This document shows, piece by piece, positions 4,793 to 40,624 of a stretch of 64,000 nucleotides of DNA. Position 1 is the first letter of the stretch, and each line of letters begins with the position of its first letter. Under the pieces are notes generated by a model. It worked only from the letters and a program-made list of their open reading frames with translations, had not been told where the DNA came from and ran no database searches. Made by a program: the position numbers and the translations under genes. The DNA is taken from positions 1 through 64,000 of the forward strand of contig PDIM01000048.1 in NCBI GenBank assembly GCA_002811675.1, in the 5' to 3' direction. The stretch is from Ichthyosporea sp. XGB-2017a. Lineage: Eukaryota > Opisthokonta > Ichthyosporea.

Positions 4793-6889
4793 ATGAATGT
4801 GGTGATGAGAAAGATTAATTGTTTTGATTCATGTGTGGGAATCGTTCCCCTCCTTGTCATTGGTTTATGCTTATGTGCATTGGCACTGTTGTCCTCTCCC
4901 AGTGTGGTGATTGTGCAAGCTGCCCCTCCTATCCCTCCCCCCGAGTTTGTCTCTGTGAAGGATGATGACGGTCCTACTGATGATCCCTGGGTGCAGGAAG
5001 GCTGCTGCACCCCCTCTGATTCCTCCTGTTGGCCTACCGAGCATGACATTACCAGACTCGCTGAAGACATGGAGGACGGAAAGGTGGAGAGAAACCTTGT
5101 GAATGGCGTACCTGAAAAAGAATTTATTCTGGCTTTATCCAAGCTTGGGTGGGGCACAGAGCAAATCAATGAGGCCCTAAAGAAATATCATGGAATTGCA
5201 AAAGGCCCAGAAATAACTGTTCATTCTCAAGTGGCTAGTTTAATTAAGCAGCAATGTGCTGGCAATAATTCTGATTCCTGGACTGACACCTGCAACTTCC
5301 TCACTGAACCTTTGGTGGGTCGTGGAAGGGATATGAAGGCGGTGTATGTGGCCAATCTGAAGGATCCACGTGATACACATTGTAGCTTTGAAGAATTGTC
5401 AGGGGGAACCACCGAATTTTGTGCAATGGCAATGCGGAATGCGCCTCAGGTGCAGAGTCCTCCCCTCATTGTTGCATGGCCCACTAAGGCGGAACATGTG
5501 GTGAGCGCTGTCAAGTTTGCCCGCAAGCACAATTTGTGTGTGAGTGTGGCTGGTGCAGGACATGACTACTTCAACAGACACTCCAATGGGAATAGTCTGC
5601 TCATCCGTACCAGTCTGTTGAAGTCTGGCAAATACAATAATGAGAGTGAAACCTTCACACTTGGTGCCGGTATGACCGACATGGATGTGGGTGAGTTTAC
5701 AAGGCCATACGGTCGCATGGTGGTCCATGGATGGGGCGCGACGGTTGGTATAGTTGGCTTCACCACCTCTGGAGGGGAAGGCACGAGCAGTTCCAAGCAT
5801 GGCTTTGCTGCCGATAACATTGAGGAGGCGGAGATTGTGACTGCAGACGGAGTGCTGAGAACAGTGAATAGACACAAGGATGCGGATCTGTGGTGGGCAC
5901 TGCGAGGAGCAGGAGGGTCCACATGAGGGGTCATCACTTCACTGACGGTCAAAGCGTATAAGGAACCAAAGATGGAATATAGAACTGTCACCGCAATTAT
6001 AGGTATCTGTAACGGCACAGACAAAGCACCGTACCGCAAAGCACACGAGAGACTGTTGGACTTTGTATCCAAGTGGGACAGTACCATTAATGGGCAAGTG
6101 GTGTCAATCCCACATCCTTTATCAGGAAGTAGCTGTCTGGGCTGGCAGATTAACTTATTCTTTGTTCGTGAGATTAATGACACACATAGTGAGTGGCCTG
6201 CGGTTACAGAGGAGTTCATAAAGAACTGGGTAAAGGAATTGGAGGAGCTTAAATTGGCGACAGTTACGCATGACCGTTATCCCGTTTCAGATGCTGGCAA
6301 GCTAGTGCTGAGTTACCTTCTAGATACAGAGGGAGTGTCTCCAAACTATGTGGGCAAAGTCGAAACGATCTTTAAACTACCGGTCATCATTCCGCAATTC
6401 GCCGCCACCTTTGCCATATCATCTGGCGCTTTGACCAAGGAGGTGGCGTACGGAGGAAAATTGCTGGATACGATGACCAATGGGGTAGAAAGTTGCCTCA
6501 GGGATATTAAAGAAGGTGCAGCAAAGGGCCCAGATTTCACAAATTTCTCAGGGATGTGCATGTTTGCCGTTGCTTTTGATTACCGATTGGATGTGGCTCG
6601 AAGGAATGATGACAGTCTGGACGAAGACAGTTGCCTCGCGCCGGGATTGCATCAGGCCGCCATGGACGTACATAGCTTTAGCGATTATGATATTTTGTAC
6701 TCCTTGAGTGATATGTCCGTGCAGAACCACGCAAACAGGTACGATCCCAAATGGCAAACTCGCTTCTGGGGCGGTAACTACGATAGGCTGTTGAAGATCA
6801 AGAGCCACTATGACCCAGATAATCTCTTCTGGTGCCGTCATTGTGTGGGAAGTGAGGCATCTCGAAAGCGAACCGTCCGAAAACGATAA
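4793..6889 (+). pseudogene. FAD-linked oxidoreductase, berberine-bridge-enzyme type, interrupted by an in-frame TGA
   Basis: A single frame runs from ATG 4793 to TAA 6889 (698 codons plus stop), broken only by TGA at 5924-5926 (codon 378). Residues about 10-43 are a hydrophobic signal peptide or anchor, followed by a Cys-containing extension. Residues about 225-420 form the FAD_binding_4 (PCMH) fold: GAGHD with His257 at the position of the His that binds FAD covalently in this family, and GFTTSGGEGT plus ADNIEEAEIVTADG. The C-terminus carries the BBE domain (RFWGGNYDRLLKIKSHYDPDN then WCRHCVG). The TGA falls in GGST-stop-GVITSLTVKAY, where relatives have an aromatic residue, often Trp (TGG). 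Neighbouring genes use TGA as a true stop, so this is a nonsense mutation, a sequencing error or readthrough. Likely a secreted or membrane-bound oxidase; substrate unknown. An AATAAA lies 62 nt after the stop. Confidence 0.8.
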
Positions 6890-8952: not shown

Positions 8953-8957
8953 TTATT
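8952..8957 (-). terminator. Poly(A) signal AATAAA overlapping the histidine kinase stop codon
   Basis: On the minus strand the gene ends GCTGAATAAAAAG, with the TAA stop as the third to fifth bases of AATAAA. No closer alternative signal was seen. Confidence 0.5.
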
Positions 8958-11664
8958 CAGCTTTTACAGACGTTTGCCTGCTAACTGTGGTAGTTACACT
9001 TGATGGCTGCACCACAGCCCATTTCTGATATGGCTTGAGCCTATCACGAGAGCTGAAAATTTTATCTGAAATAGTGTCGAACGAGCATGGGTATTGTATG
9101 AAGGAGGTCAGCGTAATGTCTTTCAAACATTGTCGCATTTCACCACGAACGGATGCTTGGCAAAGAATGAGCTTTGGTGAGCTTATTCCTTTGCTTTGCG
9201 CATACTCATCAATTCCACTTATAATATATTGAATATCAACAGGGCGAATAAACAAGTCAATGATAACAGTGTCAATTTCCTTGCTGTTCTTTATCGCCGG
9301 CAATATATTTCTGCTGTCGCTTATTTCAACAAATTTTACGTCCGCATCGCTGAGAACACCTACCACCATCTCCCGAAAAACTAAGTTATCAAGCGCAACA
9401 ATTACAGAAGCATTACACTTTTCTTTGCTCAAACATGACGTCGTAATATCTACTTTTTTCTGTTCCTCCGTTGCAACCATATTAACACAAATATGGCTTG
9501 ATTTGCAGTTTAAGCAGATTGAAGAAGTTTCAAAAATCAAAGTATGAAAATGGGATATAGATGAAAATTCTTTCATCTTCAACTTCAGAGTAAATACATG
9601 ATCCTCATATATTGCCATTTTGCCGTTGCTGTCAGATTCACACAAAAACAGCAAGTGAATGTGCTTAAATGAATATGCGTGCTCTATAATATGAATGACA
9701 ACCCAAGGTGCAGGAAATGAATCCCCCTCTATGTAGCCGCACATGCTACCAATATCAACAAAAACATAGCATAAGTGATCTTTTCTTTTGGGATCTGCCA
9801 AAATTACCTCCGCAGAATACGTGTTCCGCGCTATTATAAGATCAAAGCCAAATTCTTTACAATAAGCAGAAAATATATCCCCCCAATATATAGATTGTGA
9901 AACAAGGAGCATGTGCGCTTTGCCTTTACTTGACTCATCACTACGTTCACCTAGCACTAATTGACCCATTTTCAAAGTTACATTTGGAATCTCTAACGCA
10001 TAAGGTATAACGAACTGAACGGAGCTACCATTCGAGATATCATCAATCCACATATCCCCCCCTTGAATGTTACACAGAGAATAGCATATCGGAAGACCCA
10101 TACCACTCCCTGTTCGCACCGCTTCGCTGGCATCTGGCAAGGTAGAAAAATAGTCAAACAAGTTAATTGCGTTTGTTTTCCCTTTCTTGAACCCCGGGCC
10201 GTCATCTTCAACTCTGACGTTAACTAATCTTCGATTTGAACCAGGCCCGCCATCCATGCTGCGAGCATATATGCGAATATCAGCACCCTCACAATACTTA
10301 ATTGAATTACCAAGTAGATTTATAATAACCTGGAGAAATCTACTTTTGTCACCTACAACTTGAGCTTTGGTGCTTTCATCAGCAAAACAATTGATATTCA
10401 AATTTAAATTTGAGGACGAACGGGCATTGTATATGGTCAGTTTTGTTGCTTCATCCACAATATCTCTGGGTGCAAATGATTCCACAGTCAGCTGTAAGCA
10501 ACCGCTCAAAAGCTTTCTGCTAAGCAGCACATCTTCGAACAGCGATAAAAGCAAATTTGCACTGCTTTGCATAACCTGAAAAAGGGGGGCCATTTCATCT
10601 TCTGGATCCGTTGTTTCAAGTACCACAGAGCTTATGGATGTTATGGCATTCAGCGGAGTTCGGACTTCATGAGATATGTTTTTCAAAAATGTAGCCTTTG
10701 CTGAATTGGCCAGCATTGAGTTGTTTTTCTCAAGCTTTAAAGACATCTCCATTTTACTGCACAAACCCTGCAAATGGTAAAGTTTAAATAGGTTAGCAAA
10801 GAGATTCATGAGTGGCATGAGACAATCCGCAAGCTCTATTGTATAACCGCCCTTACGATTAGCTATCCCTGCCATTCCCGTAATTGTCCTACCAAATCGG
10901 ATGGGCATCCCAAGAAAACAGTTGAGTTTCGGATGTCCGTGTGGAATCTTACTTTTACCTCCTCGGCGTTTATCTGTCTCGGGGTTATTGGAAATTACAA
11001 CTTCATCGGTAATCAAGCAAATTCCAAATAATGTTTCCATGTTCTTGAAATCCCAACCAAATGGAGCATTCTGCATATAAAACTCACGCGTCGCTTCATT
11101 CCATGAAATATCTGTGACGGCATGCGTGTGAAGATACGTATTCCCATTTTCGTCTATTAACTTTTCCCCAATAAAGCCATACTCACTCCCAGTTAAATGC
11201 AGCAGATGATTAAGACTATTTGCGAACGATTGCATAATATTATTTTGTTCCAAGTAACTCTCTTGAATTTGAGATATGCTTTCTATTATTTGATTGGAAG
11301 ATGGCAACTTGTCAGCCCCTGCAATTTTCGTTAGCAATATAAGAAATAGCCCTTTCTTTAATCCTTCCACCTCAAGCAGCTGCACTCTAAAATGCTTCAC
11401 GCCTTGACCATAATTCCACTCAAACGAGAGCGAATTTCCGGAAATAACTGCCGCGAGGGCGGAGCCCTCTATGTGTGGACAGCCTTCGTTCACATACTTT
11501 CCAAAATCAAAACCTGGGATGTTCTTTATAGATGTACTTTCTTTCAAAAATGAAATCAAAGATTTGTTTGCCCAGACACAAGCACCATGTTTGTTAATGC
11601 ATATAGCAAACTGACAAAGGCAGTCCAGATTGCTCAGCACGCCAAAATCCTCCGTATTCTGCAT
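8953..11664 (-). CDS. PAS-GAF sensor histidine kinase with two receiver-like C-terminal regions
   Basis: 903 residues from the first in-frame ATG (11664); the frame is open to 11688 but without an ATG. Residues about 15-110 look PAS-like. About 140-300 is a GAF domain with the HGHPxLxxFLGMPI and GMAGIANRKGGY signatures common in sensor kinases. HisKA follows with the H-box FLKNISHEVRTPLN (phospho-acceptor His332), then HATPase_c with an N-box (NLLGNSIKY), DDGPGF and GSGMGLPI. After it come two stretches shaped like receiver domains (about 575-700 and 753-880). The second keeps an Asp in the acceptor-like context VIIDLFIRP but lacks the conserved Lys near the end (QYPCS instead of KP), and the acidic pair is reduced. 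No membrane segment, so probably cytosolic. Ligand unknown. The stop codon lies inside AATAAA. Confidence 0.85.
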   Translation of the reverse strand: MQNTEDFGVLSNLDCLCQFAICINKHGACVWANKSLISFLKESTSIKNIPGFDFGKYVNEGCPHIEGSALAAVISGNSLSFEWNYGQGVKHFRVQLLEVEGLKKGLFLILLTKIAGADKLPSSNQIIESISQIQESYLEQNNIMQSFANSLNHLLHLTGSEYGFIGEKLIDENGNTYLHTHAVTDISWNEATREFYMQNAPFGWDFKNMETLFGICLITDEVVISNNPETDKRRGGKSKIPHGHPKLNCFLGMPIRFGRTITGMAGIANRKGGYTIELADCLMPLMNLFANLFKLYHLQGLCSKMEMSLKLEKNNSMLANSAKATFLKNISHEVRTPLNAITSISSVVLETTDPEDEMAPLFQVMQSSANLLLSLFEDVLLSRKLLSGCLQLTVESFAPRDIVDEATKLTIYNARSSSNLNLNINCFADESTKAQVVGDKSRFLQVIINLLGNSIKYCEGADIRIYARSMDGGPGSNRRLVNVRVEDDGPGFKKGKTNAINLFDYFSTLPDASEAVRTGSGMGLPICYSLCNIQGGDMWIDDISNGSSVQFVIPYALEIPNVTLKMGQLVLGERSDESSKGKAHMLLVSQSIYWGDIFSAYCKEFGFDLIIARNTYSAEVILADPKRKDHLCYVFVDIGSMCGYIEGDSFPAPWVVIHIIEHAYSFKHIHLLFLCESDSNGKMAIYEDHVFTLKLKMKEFSSISHFHTLIFETSSICLNCKSSHICVNMVATEEQKKVDITTSCLSKEKCNASVIVALDNLVFREMVVGVLSDADVKFVEISDSRNILPAIKNSKEIDTVIIDLFIRPVDIQYIISGIDEYAQSKGISSPKLILCQASVRGEMRQCLKDITLTSFIQYPCSFDTISDKIFSSRDRLKPYQKWAVVQPSSVTTTVSRQTSVKAE

Positions 11665-13101
11665 TTTTCGAAAATCAAATTTAAACAACTAATAGTGGCT
11701 TCTTCAACATTAAACTACTCCAGCTATTAAAAAATTTTTCTCGAAAACAAGTACCAAACTTCTAATATTTTTTCAAGGCACTGCCCACAGTGATACAGGC
11801 CAAGTGAGCAATGATTGGGTATCAAGGCTGAAGCCAATGATAAGGAACAACTGAATAACAAAGAATAAGACGAAAAAGTAGCTCACATTAAATACAATTT
11901 GTAAAACGCAGTTGATCGAGACACGGAAGTAGCTTCACTATTAGCTCTGTTGGTTCTGGTCTGCTTTGGGCGTCCGTGTGGTAAGACTATTGGTCGTGGA
12001 GAAGGTGCCTGAAATGAGACAGGCATAGAGTCTATAGAGATTAGATGGATTAAAGCTTGCTTGTGTGTGCAGGTCGTACGCAAAATTGGTAGTGCAAAAT
12101 TGTTCGAATGAGAATTCAGAAAATTTGAACATGTACAGCTTCGATGTCGATCTGAGCTGCCCGGACCGGCGGGCGGCGACGACAGGCGAAGTTGTGAGTT
12201 GTGTTCTCTATATTCGATCAAGCATAATTTTGGGCGGGGTTAGGGGACGGGGTTTTATCCAATCAGAAGTTGACCATCGCTGGGATTCGCTGCAGCAGAT
12301 CACGAATCCCTTTTGTCCTATAATGGCTAATAATAACGTACAGTAATTCATAATAATTCGCTTGATCATTTCGGCTTGCACAATGGGGTGCCTTAGAAAT
12401 GTCTGTTTGCATTTATTTGTGGCAGTCGTCAGATAGATGCACTGGTATAAAAGAAATAACACGCGAAGGAATGAAGAAAATCGAGCTTTCCAACGAAAAA
12501 AAACTTCGTTGAAAGGCTAAAAAAGTGCACTTCCTTTTTGCGTCTATTTGAATGAGCAGAAGTTTTCTTATTCTGAACATAAATCTTTTGGGCAGAAACC
12601 TACGGCAAAACCAGCATTATCACATGGTGCACACTTGTGAGCAGTTTTTTTTTACAATTCCAACAAGTGCATCTTCTCCTTCTGGTGCTATCTCCTTCAC
12701 GGACCCTTTCTTTCACAGGTGTGGGGCGAATGGCGCTGTGGATACACCTTGTACTGTCTTCATTAGCTTTCCCAGACCGCGGGGGTCGCGGCCGAATAGA
12801 CTGTACTAGGTGGTGGGTGGATTAGGGCACTCTTTTAAGTCACAGACTGCACCCCAAAATGACAAAGTAACTCACACAACGAGATCCCACCAGCCAACAA
12901 TATACTCTCCAGGAAGCACATTGCTGATCTAAACGGAAATGCTTGGTATGGAAACTGTCCTTGCACTATTCACGCTTTGGTAAATCATTTCGCACTGCCT
13001 CCCACTATAGTTTGGGAAGAGCATACTATAAGACCAAGATCATAGTGTCAAGATTGCAATATTTCTGATTGCTGCCAAAGCTCTCACTTAATTAAACAAA
13101 A
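11665..13101. other. Divergent promoter region between the histidine kinase and GH38 genes
   Basis: About 1.4 kb with no supported coding region. It contains a CCAAT-type box (ccaatcagaag near 12258). Short open frames on both strands lack motifs and exon structure. Confidence 0.4.
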
Positions 13102-16100
13102 ATGGAGTCATTGAAATTCGTAAATTGGCTTCTCATCTTTCTGATTCTGTCAGGCTGGATTAATGTCCTTAAAGCTTTTTCAAATGACCTCAACGTGTAT
13201 GTAGTTCCCCATACACATCTCGATCCTGGCTGGAAAATGACCTACGAAGAGTATTATAGGTCGTTTGTTGATGCTATTTACTCAAATACAATCAAATCAT
13301 TGATCAAAGCACCTTTGCGGAAGTTTGTTATATGCGAAATGGCATATTTTGAACCTTGGTTTGAATCTCAAACAGTGGATGTTCAAGCGAACGTCAAGAA
13401 ATTGATTTCTACCAAGCAGATAGAATTTGTGGGTGGTGGGTGGGTGCAACATGATGAAGCTGTGTCTTCCGCAGGTGATATTTTTGAGCAAATGAATTTT
13501 GGACTGGACTATTTGCAAAGCACTTTTAATGTCCGCCCGACTGTTGCATGGCAGATAGATCCTTTTGGGCACTCCCTTCTCAGTGTTCCGTTGTTCCAAT
13601 CGCTAGGATTCGAAAATGTTGTTTTAAATCGCGTTGGTAATAGTACAAAAGAACGCTTGAAAGAAACTTTAAGCATGGAATTCAAATGGAAGCCAATGTC
13701 TTCCCTTGACAATGAAGGGATATTCACTCATGTACTTTACAATCATTATGAAACCCCTTCTCAATTTGACTTTGAAAGCTACCAAGTGGAACCGGTCTCA
13801 TCGACGAACATAAAGCCACTCTCAGAAGCCTTGGTGTCTTATTTTCAAAAATGTTCGACGGTCTATAAAACTTCAAATGTTCTGTTCCTTTATGGCAATG
13901 ACTTTCGCTACGTACGTGCCGAAAATATGTTTGAAAATATGGAAGCCCTTATTTCGCACATAAATCAGAATCATCGCGGTATTCGGGTGAAATTTTCAAC
14001 TCCGTCGGATTACTTTGCTGCTGTTAAATCTGACAAACTTTTTCGAAAAGGTGCGTTCCCCATAGTTGAGCACGACTTTTTGCCTTACGAAAATTCATTC
14101 TTTGACATCTGGTCTGGCTTCTTTACCAGTCGTGCGTTTCTGAAGAATTATGTTAGGGAAATGGGTGCTCTTTTATCGGATGTGGAGCGTTTGTCAGCCT
14201 ATGTCTTTCTTGTGCACGGCTTCGAAGCTCTTCTCCTTAACGCTGATATGATAAACAGCTTTGAAATTCAGCCAAAATGGCTATCTCCTAGTCGGCACAT
14301 ACTTATTGAAAATGGCACGGTCAGAGTTAAGGGAAACTCCTCCAAACGAAAAGTAACCGTGGAAGACATGCTTGATGCTGTTAGACGCAATGTGTATTTA
14401 ATGTGTCATCATGACGCAGTGACTGGTACAGCAAAAGACTATGTTGTACAGGATTACCTTCATCGTCTTACAACGTCAAACAAAATTCTACAATCTCTTC
14501 AGGCTTATCTCTCCTCTTTTATTCTTCGGCGACAGCCAGCAACCACTCCGCTTACACATAGTGCAGTGCAACATTTCTACCGTGAAAAACTGACAAACAT
14601 GCAGAAGCATGAATTATTGTATATAAGAGGGCCTTTAGAACAATCGCAGAAAACTCTTTCTGGATGGAGTTGCTTCAAAATTCATGTTAGCAACCCTGTT
14701 GCTCGCCCTCGCGCAGAAATGGTGAGGATGGGAATTTCTTTCAGGAACGTGATTGTCATAGGACCTGATGGGAGAAATATATCTTTTCAATTAAGTCCCA
14801 AATTTGAAAAAAGTGTGCAAATCCTTGAAATTCTGAAAAATTGTCAAAAGGGAGCATCTTGCTTTTCGAAAATGTGGTTATATTTTGAAGCTGAAGTTCC
14901 GGCCTTTGGACTTTCTGTCTACTCCGTCTGCGGCAGCAGCAAGGGCGATTTGGGGTCAAAAGAGTATGAATCAAACGTCGAGTTTTTTTCAGTGGATGAA
15001 GACATCATAAGCACCATTGAAAAATCGGCAACTGATTGCCCTTGTAGGATTGTGTGTGCCCATAGAATGGATTCGAAACATCAAAGTAGTTTGGATAACA
15101 ATCATATCAGCTTAAAGTTAAGCCACAAGATGAAAGGCATGGTGGAACGAGTTTTACACACGAACTCTCATGGCCGCGAATTAAACCTCGAACTTACAAC
15201 AGAATTTGTTTCTTACAATGGCGAAATTCCATATCTTTTTGGTGGTGCCTACAAATTTCGATCGAATTTGGGAATATTTTCTGGTGGCATTTTCTTTGGT
15301 ATTTTTTTTATCTGCGTTGCAGCTGTACTGTCGGTAAAGTTTGTATTTAGCTTCCGACTGTGTGGACAGTGGATGACGGGCGAAGGTAGTAAAGTTTATA
15401 ATGCTGTCAGGAAGAGCCAGTATCATTTACCGAAACCAGCCATTAGCCCTTCGGAACAAAAACCACCGCTTGATAACCGAATTTCAGAATTTCATAAAGG
15501 TTTGAAAGCGTCATGTGGGGTGGCATCTGTTGTACATTTAGTGTTTATGATTGGACTTTTCTTGGGCACATATGCACTACGCTTCCAAGTAAAGAATGAG
15601 TGCACTTTTTCAGTAGTAAGCTTGATTTGCTGTTTTGTTTGTGGTCATTGGCTATTTGGTTCATATTCGTTGGCAGAAATGCAAATGGGTGTTCTTTTGT
15701 GGTGTATTTGCTACGTAAACATATGGTTAACTGGTGTAGTAGACCTCTGGGTATGTCTTATTGTTTGTGGAGTCGCTCTAATTATCGTGGTATCCGGCTT
15801 GCAAGTTTCCCGTCGATGGTTTCCCTTGAGTGTGCGCGAAAACACACTCAGAATGAGAACTGGACTTGTTTTGTGGCTTTCTGCATCCGCCTATTTGATT
15901 GGCTTTTTTTATTTTCAGCATATGCATGGTGATATAGTGCCCTTGACTTCATTGAAGACATTTGCTGTAGTCAAGGGACCCCTAGTGGAAGAAGTTCATT
16001 ATTTTTATGAGGACTTTCCCTCTACTTCTTTTTCCCTTCGACTATTTAAGAACGCCGCCCAAAGAAACCAGAACATTTTGGAGTATGAATTTGATGGCTT

Positions 16101-17142
16101 GATGGTTAAAGAGGATGTCGAATTGAGTATGCGTTTCAGTACTGGCATGCAAAGCGAACGATTATTTTATTCAGACTTTGGTCTTGGGTGGGATTTACAA
16201 AATAGGCGTCGAAGGCACGACTTCCCGTTGCCTTTCAACTTTGTGCCCTCTTCGTCAATTTTTGGTATTCATGATAAAAAGCAAGATGCCAATTTGAGTT
16301 TGATTGTATCGCATAGTCTTGGAATTTCTTCTTTGAGGGATGGTCAGATTGAATTTTTTGTTTTTCGAAGACTCACTTCAGATGATGGTGCTGGCCTGAT
16401 GGAAGGATGTGATGATATCCTACCTTCGCAGATGAAATTCTGGCTTGCTCTGGATTCCGATAAAATACGGCTTCGGGAATTAAGTATTAGTAAAAATAAC
16501 CCTCTTCAGCTGGTTATTTTTCCTATGGAAATTGCAAGCTCTCCGAACAATTTCTATGAGTCAGTACTTGCACTGGATCACTGCCTTTTCAGCCCGCTAA
16601 AAGCTTCTTTACCGAAAGGAGTATTTGTTACCAGGTTTCGGATTGATTCGTTTCACTCCTTGCTATCGAAAGATAACACTAATGCTGAAATAGTCTTAAG
16701 GTCTGTTAATATGAATTATCGCAAATCACATGAATTGAAATCTGAATTAGATCCGCTCTTTTATGGAAAGGAAGATTCCCTGGCTTTGTCGGACAGACGT
16801 ACTTGTGCTATGAACGTCTGGAATGGCCATCCCCCTCCCTTTGAGCCAACCTGCTCTGTTCTTAAGAATTTCGAGCTAGCAAATTTCAAATCGAAAAAGA
16901 CATTTCCAGACCCAAGCTTGAATGAGTCAAAGGCGTTTTACGTAGATTCCTATTTTCACACAAATCGAGATGAAGCAGCAAGTGAAGATGTTCAAATTGA
17001 AATTTATGTTGGAAATGCCTTTTATATATTGCTTGTCGTCTTCTTTTTCGGTATTATTATTGCTATTTTGAAAACACTGGGCATCTCGTATAGTTTACTC
17101 TCTATGAAGAAAGAACTTTCAATTCCTGGAAAAAACGACTAG
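13102..17142 (+). CDS. GH38 class II alpha-mannosidase with a multi-pass membrane region inserted in its C-terminal half
   Basis: 1346 residues, single exon. Residues 5-25 are a signal peptide or anchor. The GH38 catalytic domain is intact: HTHLDPGW (His39 and Asp41 as zinc ligands), FVGGGWVQHDEA, WQIDPFGHS (Asp153, nucleophile) and CHHDAVTGT (His437, zinc ligand). Family knowledge places it with Golgi mannosidase II or lysosomal-type enzymes that trim mannose from N-glycans. The unusual part is the C-terminal beta domain. FGGAYKFRSN (about 713-722), which normally leads within a few dozen residues to KGPLVEEV (about 958-965), is here separated by about 230 residues holding roughly six hydrophobic helices (about 723-749, 805-826, 834-857, 862-902 as two, 920-940). 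The beta domain then resumes. A further helix lies at about 1303-1330 near the C-terminus. An even number of inserted helices would keep both halves lumenal. Confidence 0.88.
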   Translation: MESLKFVNWLLIFLILSGWINVLKAFSNDLNVYVVPHTHLDPGWKMTYEEYYRSFVDAIYSNTIKSLIKAPLRKFVICEMAYFEPWFESQTVDVQANVKKLISTKQIEFVGGGWVQHDEAVSSAGDIFEQMNFGLDYLQSTFNVRPTVAWQIDPFGHSLLSVPLFQSLGFENVVLNRVGNSTKERLKETLSMEFKWKPMSSLDNEGIFTHVLYNHYETPSQFDFESYQVEPVSSTNIKPLSEALVSYFQKCSTVYKTSNVLFLYGNDFRYVRAENMFENMEALISHINQNHRGIRVKFSTPSDYFAAVKSDKLFRKGAFPIVEHDFLPYENSFFDIWSGFFTSRAFLKNYVREMGALLSDVERLSAYVFLVHGFEALLLNADMINSFEIQPKWLSPSRHILIENGTVRVKGNSSKRKVTVEDMLDAVRRNVYLMCHHDAVTGTAKDYVVQDYLHRLTTSNKILQSLQAYLSSFILRRQPATTPLTHSAVQHFYREKLTNMQKHELLYIRGPLEQSQKTLSGWSCFKIHVSNPVARPRAEMVRMGISFRNVIVIGPDGRNISFQLSPKFEKSVQILEILKNCQKGASCFSKMWLYFEAEVPAFGLSVYSVCGSSKGDLGSKEYESNVEFFSVDEDIISTIEKSATDCPCRIVCAHRMDSKHQSSLDNNHISLKLSHKMKGMVERVLHTNSHGRELNLELTTEFVSYNGEIPYLFGGAYKFRSNLGIFSGGIFFGIFFICVAAVLSVKFVFSFRLCGQWMTGEGSKVYNAVRKSQYHLPKPAISPSEQKPPLDNRISEFHKGLKASCGVASVVHLVFMIGLFLGTYALRFQVKNECTFSVVSLICCFVCGHWLFGSYSLAEMQMGVLLWCICYVNIWLTGVVDLWVCLIVCGVALIIVVSGLQVSRRWFPLSVRENTLRMRTGLVLWLSASAYLIGFFYFQHMHGDIVPLTSLKTFAVVKGPLVEEVHYFYEDFPSTSFSLRLFKNAAQRNQNILEYEFDGLMVKEDVELSMRFSTGMQSERLFYSDFGLGWDLQNRRRRHDFPLPFNFVPSSSIFGIHDKKQDANLSLIVSHSLGISSLRDGQIEFFVFRRLTSDDGAGLMEGCDDILPSQMKFWLALDSDKIRLRELSISKNNPLQLVIFPMEIASSPNNFYESVLALDHCLFSPLKASLPKGVFVTRFRIDSFHSLLSKDNTNAEIVLRSVNMNYRKSHELKSELDPLFYGKEDSLALSDRRTCAMNVWNGHPPPFEPTCSVLKNFELANFKSKKTFPDPSLNESKAFYVDSYFHTNRDEAASEDVQIEIYVGNAFYILLVVFFFGIIIAILKTLGISYSLLSMKKELSIPGKND

Positions 17143-38346: not shown

Positions 38347-40624
38347 TCACGTACCACCAACAGGGACAGGAGATTTGACTACAGCAACATACTCAGACTC
38401 CTCTTCAGCCCCCTCTAAAAACAGAATAATACTCTCTATGAGGGACTCAACATCATTATTTAAATAAAATACCTTATCTATGGCATATTCAAGTTCACTT
38501 TCAACTTGATTAGCAAGATCATAATCATGCAGTCCAATGTTATAATAATCCCCAAGCTCGACGTTATCATCGGTAAGAGTGTTGTTAAGTTTTTCTTTCA
38601 GCTTTGAAACGTTTCCATCTGCATGAGCATGGGCCATTTTGCTACTCAAGTGCTCTTCTGACACAACATTGTCAATTGATATATCGTCTATTTCGGGGTC
38701 CAAGCTTTTACAAGAGGTCCTTGAGGAAGTACCTCCGGCTTCACAATTTTCCACCGTTGGCAGCAACATAATTACAATTGGATCTAGTCCTTCCAAGCAC
38801 ATGGTTTTTAAAGCCTTTGGGTGACCATCCACAATGACTCTCTTCACTTCACCCGACTTCGGTGCACTCAACGATCGAATACTTTCAACAGTTACGCCAT
38901 ACAGATGATTCTCGTACTGGCCCACCTCAGCAAATTCCCCTTGCTCCATCATTTCACTAAATTGAGCTTTAGATTCGTAATAAAAGTCTACACCATCCTT
39001 TTCGTTCTTGCTCTTGGGCCGTGTAGTAAAAGGCACTGGAGTACAGAAATCAGAAGAATAGAGCCCTAACGCTACTTCTACAACCATGTCAGCGGCTGCG
39101 CCGAGGACAAAAAGAGGTCTCACATACTTTGGAAATACATTTTCTTTTTGACAAATGTACTGATAGCCGAGCCAATGGCTATCTTCTCCGGCAAAACGAA
39201 GATCAGAAAGAGTTCTCTGTCTCATGGTGGGCGTATGGGGTACAAGAATGGAAGTAGGTTCTTTGCCCTTTCCGGAATCTTCCTTTTCGATGTGCTCTAA
39301 AGTAACTTTGTTCTTTACAGCTCTCCTAAACTCTATAGATCTAGATCTCTTAAATCCTTCAAACTGAGGAACATCATCAGCATTTAAAAGGCCAGTCTGA
39401 ATAAAAAGGTCTACGGATGGCTCAAATTTAACATGAAGCCCCTTTTCATTAGAATTATTTCTCATTTGAGTAGAACTTGGAATAAACCCTCGTTTGCCAA
39501 CATTCCATCCTGTGGTTTTATCTTCAATCACCTTCGCTATCCACCAGAGTTGATATGTAGAGTCATCTATTATATCGATAATAGCCCCTTTAGCAAATCG
39601 TAGGGCTCCTTCATAATTCGGCGTATCTGGATCACCGTCTTGTCTTGAGTAATCAACCACAGCCCTTACACGAAACAAATGTTCTTTTTTTGAAATGCTT
39701 TGGTTTTTCTTCATATTCGAAACGAAGTTAGAAAATCCCTTTTTGTTAGAAACCACGCCCAGAGCAATATTTCCAGACGAATTAATCAGCATACCAGCTG
39801 TGTCTTCGTAAGACATGCCGTACAAACTTAAGCCGTTGATAGTAAGCAATTCATCACCCACCTACCCACATAGAATGAGCGTCAGTAACACAGAATATAA
39901 ACAATTTGAGCTAATACAGCAGAGAAACACTGCTCAAAGAAGCTGGAAAGAACTCACCTTCAATCTGCCGTCCTGGTAGGCAAGCCCACCCTGACTTATT
40001 CTACTAATAAAAATTCCAGTAGGAAGTATGCGGTCATCAGAAGTCGCAGCAATCACATTGGCCTTTTTTCTCCCAACAATGTTAAATCCCAAATCTTTGC
40101 TTTTGGACTTGTCAAGAACAATAATTCTAATTTCACTCGCAGCAACATCTTCCACTACCGCATTACCAACAACAGTCACTCTCTTTCCGTTTTGGGCAGT
40201 TAAACTTGAACCCGAAACCTGAGCACTGGCTCGTCGTTCCGCCCCATAAGTACTAGCGCGACGAGTAGAAATCCTCGATCCAACTGCACCACTATCAGGA
40301 GCAGCAGCTACAGTTTCCGGCATCCCCACGCCCGAGCTTCCATAATAGCTACCGAAAAATTCTTTTCTCATACAAAAGTTATCGTATACTTCAGCAATGT
40401 GCTGGAACGCTTGCGCATTAACAACTCGATCCAAATCAGACAAGGTTTTCAAGACGTCTTCCTCCACGCAGTCTTTCAGTCTTTCCTTTTCATCTCTCAA
40501 TTTGTACACCAAATCACCTAGTTTGGAAACATCTAATGAGCCATAAACTCCTCTTAGTTTCGAGAAAGGCAATACTAAAGTAGTTACACAAACCACTGCA
40601 CTTACCGTCCTTTACAGTTGTCAT
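38347..40624 (-). CDS. MAGUK scaffold protein (L27-like, PDZ, SH3, guanylate-kinase-like; DLG/MPP type)
   Basis: Three-exon model: 40606-40624, 39958-40574 and 38347-39861, giving 716 residues. The 96-nt intron (39862-39957, GTGAGT to GTAG) is certain because it rebuilds the PDZ sequence GRLKVGDELLTINGLSL. The first intron is a candidate 31-nt one that supplies the only upstream ATG in frame. Domains: L27-like helices (about 20-75), PDZ with LGFNIVGRK (about 160-245), SH3 (FRVRAVVDYSRQDGD and later WWIAKVI), and a guanylate-kinase-like domain with YVRPLFVLGA, VPFTTRPK, GVDFYYESKAQFSEMMEQGEFAEVGQYENHLYG. As in other MAGUKs, the kinase P-loop is not conserved, so it binds rather than phosphorylates. 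MAGUKs cluster membrane proteins at contacts and are known from animals and their unicellular relatives. Confidence 0.9.
38463..38468 (+). terminator. DYNLT2B poly(A) signal lying antisense in MAGUK coding sequence
   Basis: AATAAA 128 nt after the DYNLT2B stop, within the last exon of the MAGUK gene. Confidence 0.5.
40575..40605 (-). other. Candidate 31-nt mini-intron in the MAGUK gene
   Basis: Minus-strand sequence beginning GTAAGTGCAGTGG and ending ACTTTAG, 31 nt. It interrupts a codon after one base (GAC G | TA TTG CCT). The unspliced frame has an in-frame TAA upstream and no ATG until about codon 77 of the exon, so splicing here provides the natural start ATG ACA ACT GTA AAG at 40624. 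Confidence 0.6.

Follow-up and report, generated by a model that had tools for sequence, protein, structure and literature searches.

A GH38 alpha-mannosidase gene with a predicted six-helix membrane insert in its C-terminal beta domain

The window analysed here is positions 1-64000 of contig 48 (C48) from a genome of 25.06 Mb in 291 contigs, and it contains a GH38 alpha-mannosidase gene whose C-terminal beta domain is interrupted by a stretch encoding six predicted membrane helices. The gene is a single frame, 13102-17142 (+), which is open over 1346 codons, as had been stated in an earlier reading made from the letters alone (hereafter the sequence-only reading), and ends with TAG. The parts of the gene outside the insert are as follows.

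13102..17142, + strand: GH38 alpha-mannosidase gene (open frame of 1346 codons, Pfam domains)
13114..13170, + strand: N-terminal hydrophobic segment, residues 5-23, signal peptide or signal anchor (hydrophobicity scan)
13192..14088, + strand: GH38N catalytic domain, residues 31-329, with H39, D41, D153 and D267 (Pfam, alignment)
14107..14499, + strand: GH38 middle domain, residues 336-466, with zinc ligand H437 (Pfam, alignment)
15178..15219, + strand: GH38C sandwich strands just upstream of the insert, residues 693-706 (AlphaFold model)
15952..16389, + strand: remainder of the GH38C domain, residues 951-1096 (Pfam, match to the bovine structure)
17014..17070, + strand: C-terminal membrane helix, residues 1305-1323, followed by a 23-residue tail with YSLL at 1330 (hydrophobicity scan, translation)

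The Pfam domains GH38N, Alpha-mann_mid and GH38C followed one another in this order with 209.1, 56.3 and 27.3 bits, all above their cut-offs (25, 31.1 and 25). The GH38C match covered profile positions 67-205 only (residues 951-1096) and began right behind the insert; the GH38C part upstream of the insert is apparently too divergent for a profile match. The whole fold was nevertheless found in the model, since AlphaFold closed the GH38 fold on both sides around the insert, in agreement with the claim that a C-terminal beta domain is present. Residues H39, D41, D153, D267 and H437 aligned to H90, D92, D204, D341 and H471 of dGMII (1hty; the published numbering is the chain index + 30); the positions H90, D92, D204 and H471 comprise the zinc ligands and the nucleophile. 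With every tested zinc and catalytic residue in place, the enzyme looks catalytically competent by alignment, and the statement that the catalytic motifs are intact held for zinc ligands, nucleophile and acid/base residue alike. According to the titles of PDB entries for dGMII, its nucleophile is D204 and its acid-base catalyst D341.

The insert was located by comparing the interval between Y717 (in GGAYKF) and G959 (in KGPLVEE), which belong to two neighbouring GH38C beta-strands. Here 241 residues lie between them, whereas the same interval in 41 other GH38 proteins, hand-picked from 120 listed homologues, was 7-38 residues long (median 22; 20-26 in 39 of the 41; the minimum of 7 comes from a row gapped at the Y column). 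The extra sequence, about 229 residues, extends approximately from residue 722 to 950 (nucleotides (nt) 15265-15951). The sequence-only reading had placed some 230 residues with six helices between GGAYKFRSN and KGPLVEEV, which was confirmed; its bounds of 15241..15966 had the right location, and the edges are corrected here. The parts of the insert, as given by a scan with Hessa-type values and by residue and charge counts, are listed next.

15265..15951, + strand: insert, residues 722-950, six predicted membrane helices, without detected relative (scan, alignment)
15274..15336, + strand: membrane helix 1, residues 725-745
15337..15528, + strand: long loop, residues 746-809, with ten lysines or arginines, predicted cytosolic (scan, charge count)
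15529..15585, + strand: membrane helix 2, residues 810-828
15601..15657, + strand: membrane helix 3, residues 834-852, cysteine-rich (scan, residue count)
15685..15741, + strand: membrane helix 4, residues 862-880
15745..15801, + strand: membrane helix 5, residues 882-900
15802..15858, + strand: loop, residues 901-919, with five lysines or arginines, predicted cytosolic (scan, charge count)
15859..15915, + strand: membrane helix 6, residues 920-938, weakest of the six

A Kyte-Doolittle scan at a threshold of 1.6 recovered four of the six insert helices; helices 4 and 6, which it missed, are therefore the weaker ones. The lysine and arginine counts in the seven pieces of the insert, read from lumen to lumen, were 0/10/1/0/0/5/0, and all six N-glycosylation sequons of the protein fell outside the insert. 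Together, charges and sequons make up the pattern expected if the module passes the membrane six times and begins and ends in the lumen; in keeping with the positive-inside rule, the positively charged loops are those predicted to be cytosolic, and both halves of the enzyme would stay in the lumen. This predicted topology agrees with the earlier suggestion that an even number of helices would keep both halves on that side, and the hydrophobic helices proposed at both ends of the protein were also recovered by the scan, at residues 5-23 and 1305-1323.

We examined if such a layout occurs in relatives, using 120 listed homologues of the 1442 that passed the search. None of the 120 had two or more internal hydrophobic segments, in line with the sequence-only reading, which knew of no described GH38 with this layout, and seven had one. 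Five of these seven are 1891-2059 amino acids long, a length which suggests two fused copies. A hydrophobic segment within 90 residues of the N terminus was present in 109 of the 120 and is, judging by these sequences, ordinary for the family. A C-terminal hydrophobic segment was present in four (P0010 from Balamuthia, P0012 from Stygamoeba, P0013 and P0014); the C-terminal segment of the present protein is therefore not new, and the assertion that family members are soluble or have a single N-terminal anchor did not stand. These four resemble the six-helix protein in having a hydrophobic N terminus along with one C-terminal segment, and differ from it in lacking two or more internal segments and in having loops of 20-26 residues. 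Literature on GH38 or multi-pass glycosidases, at the level of titles and the beginnings of abstracts, gave no GH38 with internal membrane helices, which does not prove that none is in print.

Among characterised enzymes, Golgi alpha-mannosidase II (dGMII, plant alpha-mannosidase 2) shares with the protein the three GH38 domains, the zinc and catalytic residues and the overall fold; its loop of about 22 residues sets it apart, and none of the listed relatives has a pair of hydrophobic segments in its interior. Golgi alpha-mannosidase II is held by a single N-terminal anchor, and lysosomal or vacuolar alpha-mannosidase is soluble. In a tree the six-helix protein joined plant MAN2 weakly (91/89) on a long branch, and the join may be false. 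The jack bean enzyme (6b9o), of the lysosomal/vacuolar type, had the top sequence score and the top Z in PDB. The bovine lysosomal enzyme (1o7d) consists of several chains produced by cleavage, and the region behind the insert matched from residue 78 of chain D, which suggests that the insertion site corresponds to a point inside that chain. A difference from the lysosomal/vacuolar type is that this genome has a separate gene for it: at least two other GH38 genes are present, one Ams1-like on contig C55 and one lysosomal-type on C178, the latter with a loop of 22 residues and grouping with plant vacuolar enzymes (100/99). On C178 (- strand) a gene for a GH125 metal-independent alpha-mannosidase adjoins the lysosomal-type gene within a locus of 5539 nt. 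GnTI (MGAT1; PF03071), which would supply the substrate of a Golgi alpha-mannosidase II, was not found in the genome, and was above cut-off in none of 14 control genomes, so that this search had no positive control.

Relatives of the insert itself were sought by shared 5-residue words or family models, which could miss a distant relative. No match reached E <= 10 among 248 candidates of GH38 length, E <= 1 among 1208 candidates of 0.55-1.75 times the insert length, E <= 10 among PDB sequences or E <= 0.1 in NCBIfam. Among viral contigs ten stretches fitted the pattern and none was confirmed, and among the scored candidates from its own genome the insert found only itself, a second copy not being found. 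The sole Pfam match was DUF6057, with 16.7 bits (E 0.0036) against a cut-off of 29.8, and with 14.6 bits (E 0.016) when only the insert was scanned; this identity was set aside as sub-threshold and probably due to hydrophobic composition.

The reading frame across the insert had no stops, compared with 19 and 10 in the other forward frames and 11, 8 and 8 in the reverse frames. Shuffling the insert gave no stop-free sequence in 2000 base shuffles or in 5000 dinucleotide shuffles (mean 11.8 stops, minimum 2). Taken with the computed frame, domain order, catalytic residues, insertion site, helix count, charge pattern and fold of the flanks, we consider it fairly probable that the gene encodes a secretory-pathway GH38 enzyme (Golgi- or lysosome-type) that is polytopic and carries a six-helix membrane-embedding module.

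If translated as read, such a protein would have seven membrane spans after its leader, six in one inter-strand loop of GH38C and one at the C terminus. On entering the lumen, the chain would form the catalytic domain and begin the beta domain; after the six helices had crossed the membrane and come back, the remainder of the beta domain would pair, in the lumen, with the portion already made. The insert and the C-terminal helix would hold the beta domain of the presumably active enzyme against the membrane of a Golgi or lysosome-like compartment, an anchoring role which we infer along with translation, topology and location. Two basic loops and a short tail would be exposed to the cytosol, and the loops could be offered for retention or sorting. 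YxxPhi is a sorting pattern, which is fitted by YSLL (in the tail, seven residues after the C-terminal helix) and by YNAV (in the first loop); as 9 of the 49 tyrosines in the protein fit it, these two are weak candidates for sorting signals.

Several observations weigh against a polytopic enzyme with a membrane-embedding module. The beta domain does close around the insert in the AlphaFold model; the insert in that context, however, was helix of low confidence, its predicted local distance difference test (pLDDT) score being mostly <50, and when modelled alone it gave a mean pLDDT of 54.9 and a predicted template modelling score of 0.34. Its codon-usage score, 0.075 per codon, agreed with the flanks, but frame +2 scored 0.061; codon usage is a weak test here, given the slight bias and the almost equal score of a wrong frame. 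The T content was 36.7% in the insert versus 31.7% in the flanks, and T-richness by itself favours hydrophobic residues. Residue N266, directly before the acid/base D267, replaces the aspartate of dGMII position 340, a replacement also found in the Selaginella relative P0024. The insert is known from one genome only, so that selection on it is not measurable. Extra in-frame sequence was also found inside other conserved domains: in a kinase (C180:169930-171306), 618 nt separate the two matched halves within a single 1307-codon frame, and a kinesin match (C211:52445-53911) takes up 1467 nt for 327 positions and is stop-free, which means that an insert within a domain need not imply function. 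These stretches, and three in-frame GT-AG pairs whose removal leaves a loop of normal length, lowered our confidence in the module.

The insert could instead be a T-rich non-coding segment that was exonised or arose de novo, its helices being real and tolerated in a surface loop without a selected function. The lack of relatives in every search run and the T-rich composition speak for such an origin, and long in-frame stretches inside conserved domains occur in other genes of the genome as well; besides the kinase and kinesin, a GH47 match (C162:107058-109142) lies in four pieces within one 892-codon frame. The GH47, kinase and kinesin stretches count somewhat towards tolerated insertions, and the genome may contain many of this kind, that in the GH38 gene among them. 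Orphan status, however, is no proof of recent origin, and six helices with alternating charge and with both termini correctly placed exceed, in our judgement, what a random T-rich frame would have to produce. We consider this explanation unlikely, though still to be taken seriously.

An unspliced intron was also considered; mature mRNA lacking the stretch would encode an ordinary GH38 enzyme with a C-terminal anchor. Introns do exist in the genome, the stretch is T-rich, and 3 of 26 in-frame GT-AG pairs (donors 15225-15329, acceptors 15890-15999) would leave loops of 21, 23 and 24 residues (15316-15975, 15284-15937 and 15325-15975), near the family median; one further pair, 15299-15970 (672 nt), would leave a 17-residue loop. 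None of the 26 pairs, however, had a donor resembling GTGAGT, GTAAGC, GTGAGT or GTATGT, which are the donors of the four introns identified in the genome (a PDZ/SH3/guanylate-kinase gene has one of them and an NDRG gene the other three, boundaries set by eye), and these introns are 62-96 nt long, far from the 600-750 nt needed here. Long introns are also opposed by kinase matches whose pieces lie in different open frames with gaps of only 70 nt (C155), 100 (C241), 80 (C10) and 136 + 194 (C80, where the gaps also contain unmatched residues), and by kinesin matches, all 20 of which cover at least 290 of 327 positions as one piece, 18 without an internal stop. The genome looks intron-poor, though not intron-free. 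The failure of all 5000 dinucleotide shuffles to remain open across the stretch, and a charge order that fits a membrane domain with an even number of helices, speak against an intron in the same way. An open, hydrophobic, charge-ordered intron of 600-750 nt is less likely than coding sequence, and we regard the intron explanation as improbable.

More speculatively, and with slightly less probability still, the insert could be a selected working module that does more than anchor the enzyme, i.e., a channel, a metal-delivery unit or a bundle binding lipid or a partner, which would couple glycan processing to a membrane event. An active transporter, for example of Zn2+ to the zinc-dependent mannosidase or of released sugar, is very improbable. 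The helix number of six would suit it, as would the cysteines (10 in 131 helix residues versus 3.4% in 40 other hydrophobic segments of the genome), histidines in helices 2 and 3 and an aspartate before helix 5; the cysteine excess is modest, however, and Pfam and NCBIfam gave no match of the insert to a transporter family, including the CDF/ZnT zinc transporters. The ends of ZnT proteins are cytosolic, whereas both ends of the insert are predicted to be lumenal. The reported dependence of mammalian Golgi mannosidase II on zinc from ZNT5-6 and ZNT7 (PMC11209640) was counted for metal delivery. An assembly error, either joining two genes or making the contig chimeric, is hardly credible. The sequence-only reading had raised a misassembly of two genes, and the lack of a match to the insert elsewhere in the genome would allow an error of this sort; the joins, however, are both in frame and within one loop, the flanks on either side are parts of one GH38 (Pfam, structure alignment), and 14900-16300 has no direct repeats of at least 14 nt and a single imperfect inverted pair (22 nt, 73%).

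Other genes were recorded in the window and genome. A MAGUK-like gene at 38347-40596 (-) has a guanylate kinase domain above the Pfam cut-off, PDZ and SH3 domains below it, and a 96-nt intron within the PDZ domain. A p53 family frame of 767 codons without internal stop lies at C38:203000-208000, and PMC6981761 reports p53 from no group other than Holozoa; p53 and the PDZ/SH3/guanylate-kinase gene point to a unicellular holozoan. Corallochytrium limacisporum, with 0.0 introns per kb (PMC5560861), fits less well, since its p53 is given as 623 aa with a pI of 5.50 (PMC6981761) and, if the gene here lacks introns, no ATG of the 767-codon frame yields this length or, among the long forms, this pI. 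A genome search for integrin-beta was without a match and had no positive control. A histidine kinase with GAF, HisKA and HATPase domains is present in this holozoan-like genome at window positions 8953-11688 (-). Within 4793-6889 (+), open reading frames 4793-5926 and 5972-6889 share a frame and are split by a single TGA at 5924-5926; together they resemble what we take to be one FAD-linked oxidase. The TGA may represent a nonsense change, a sequencing error or read-through, which are not distinguishable here.

If the GH38 protein is made as read, a lumenal beta-sandwich can be completed across a six-helix excursion through the membrane. This would contrast with an enzyme family whose other members, as far as surveyed, are soluble or anchored by one helix, and would place an orphan membrane domain within an old enzyme of a probable relative of animals. 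It would provide a natural test of how domains fold when a membrane insert interrupts them, and would show if a glycosidase of glycan processing is able to bring along a retention or transport unit of its own.
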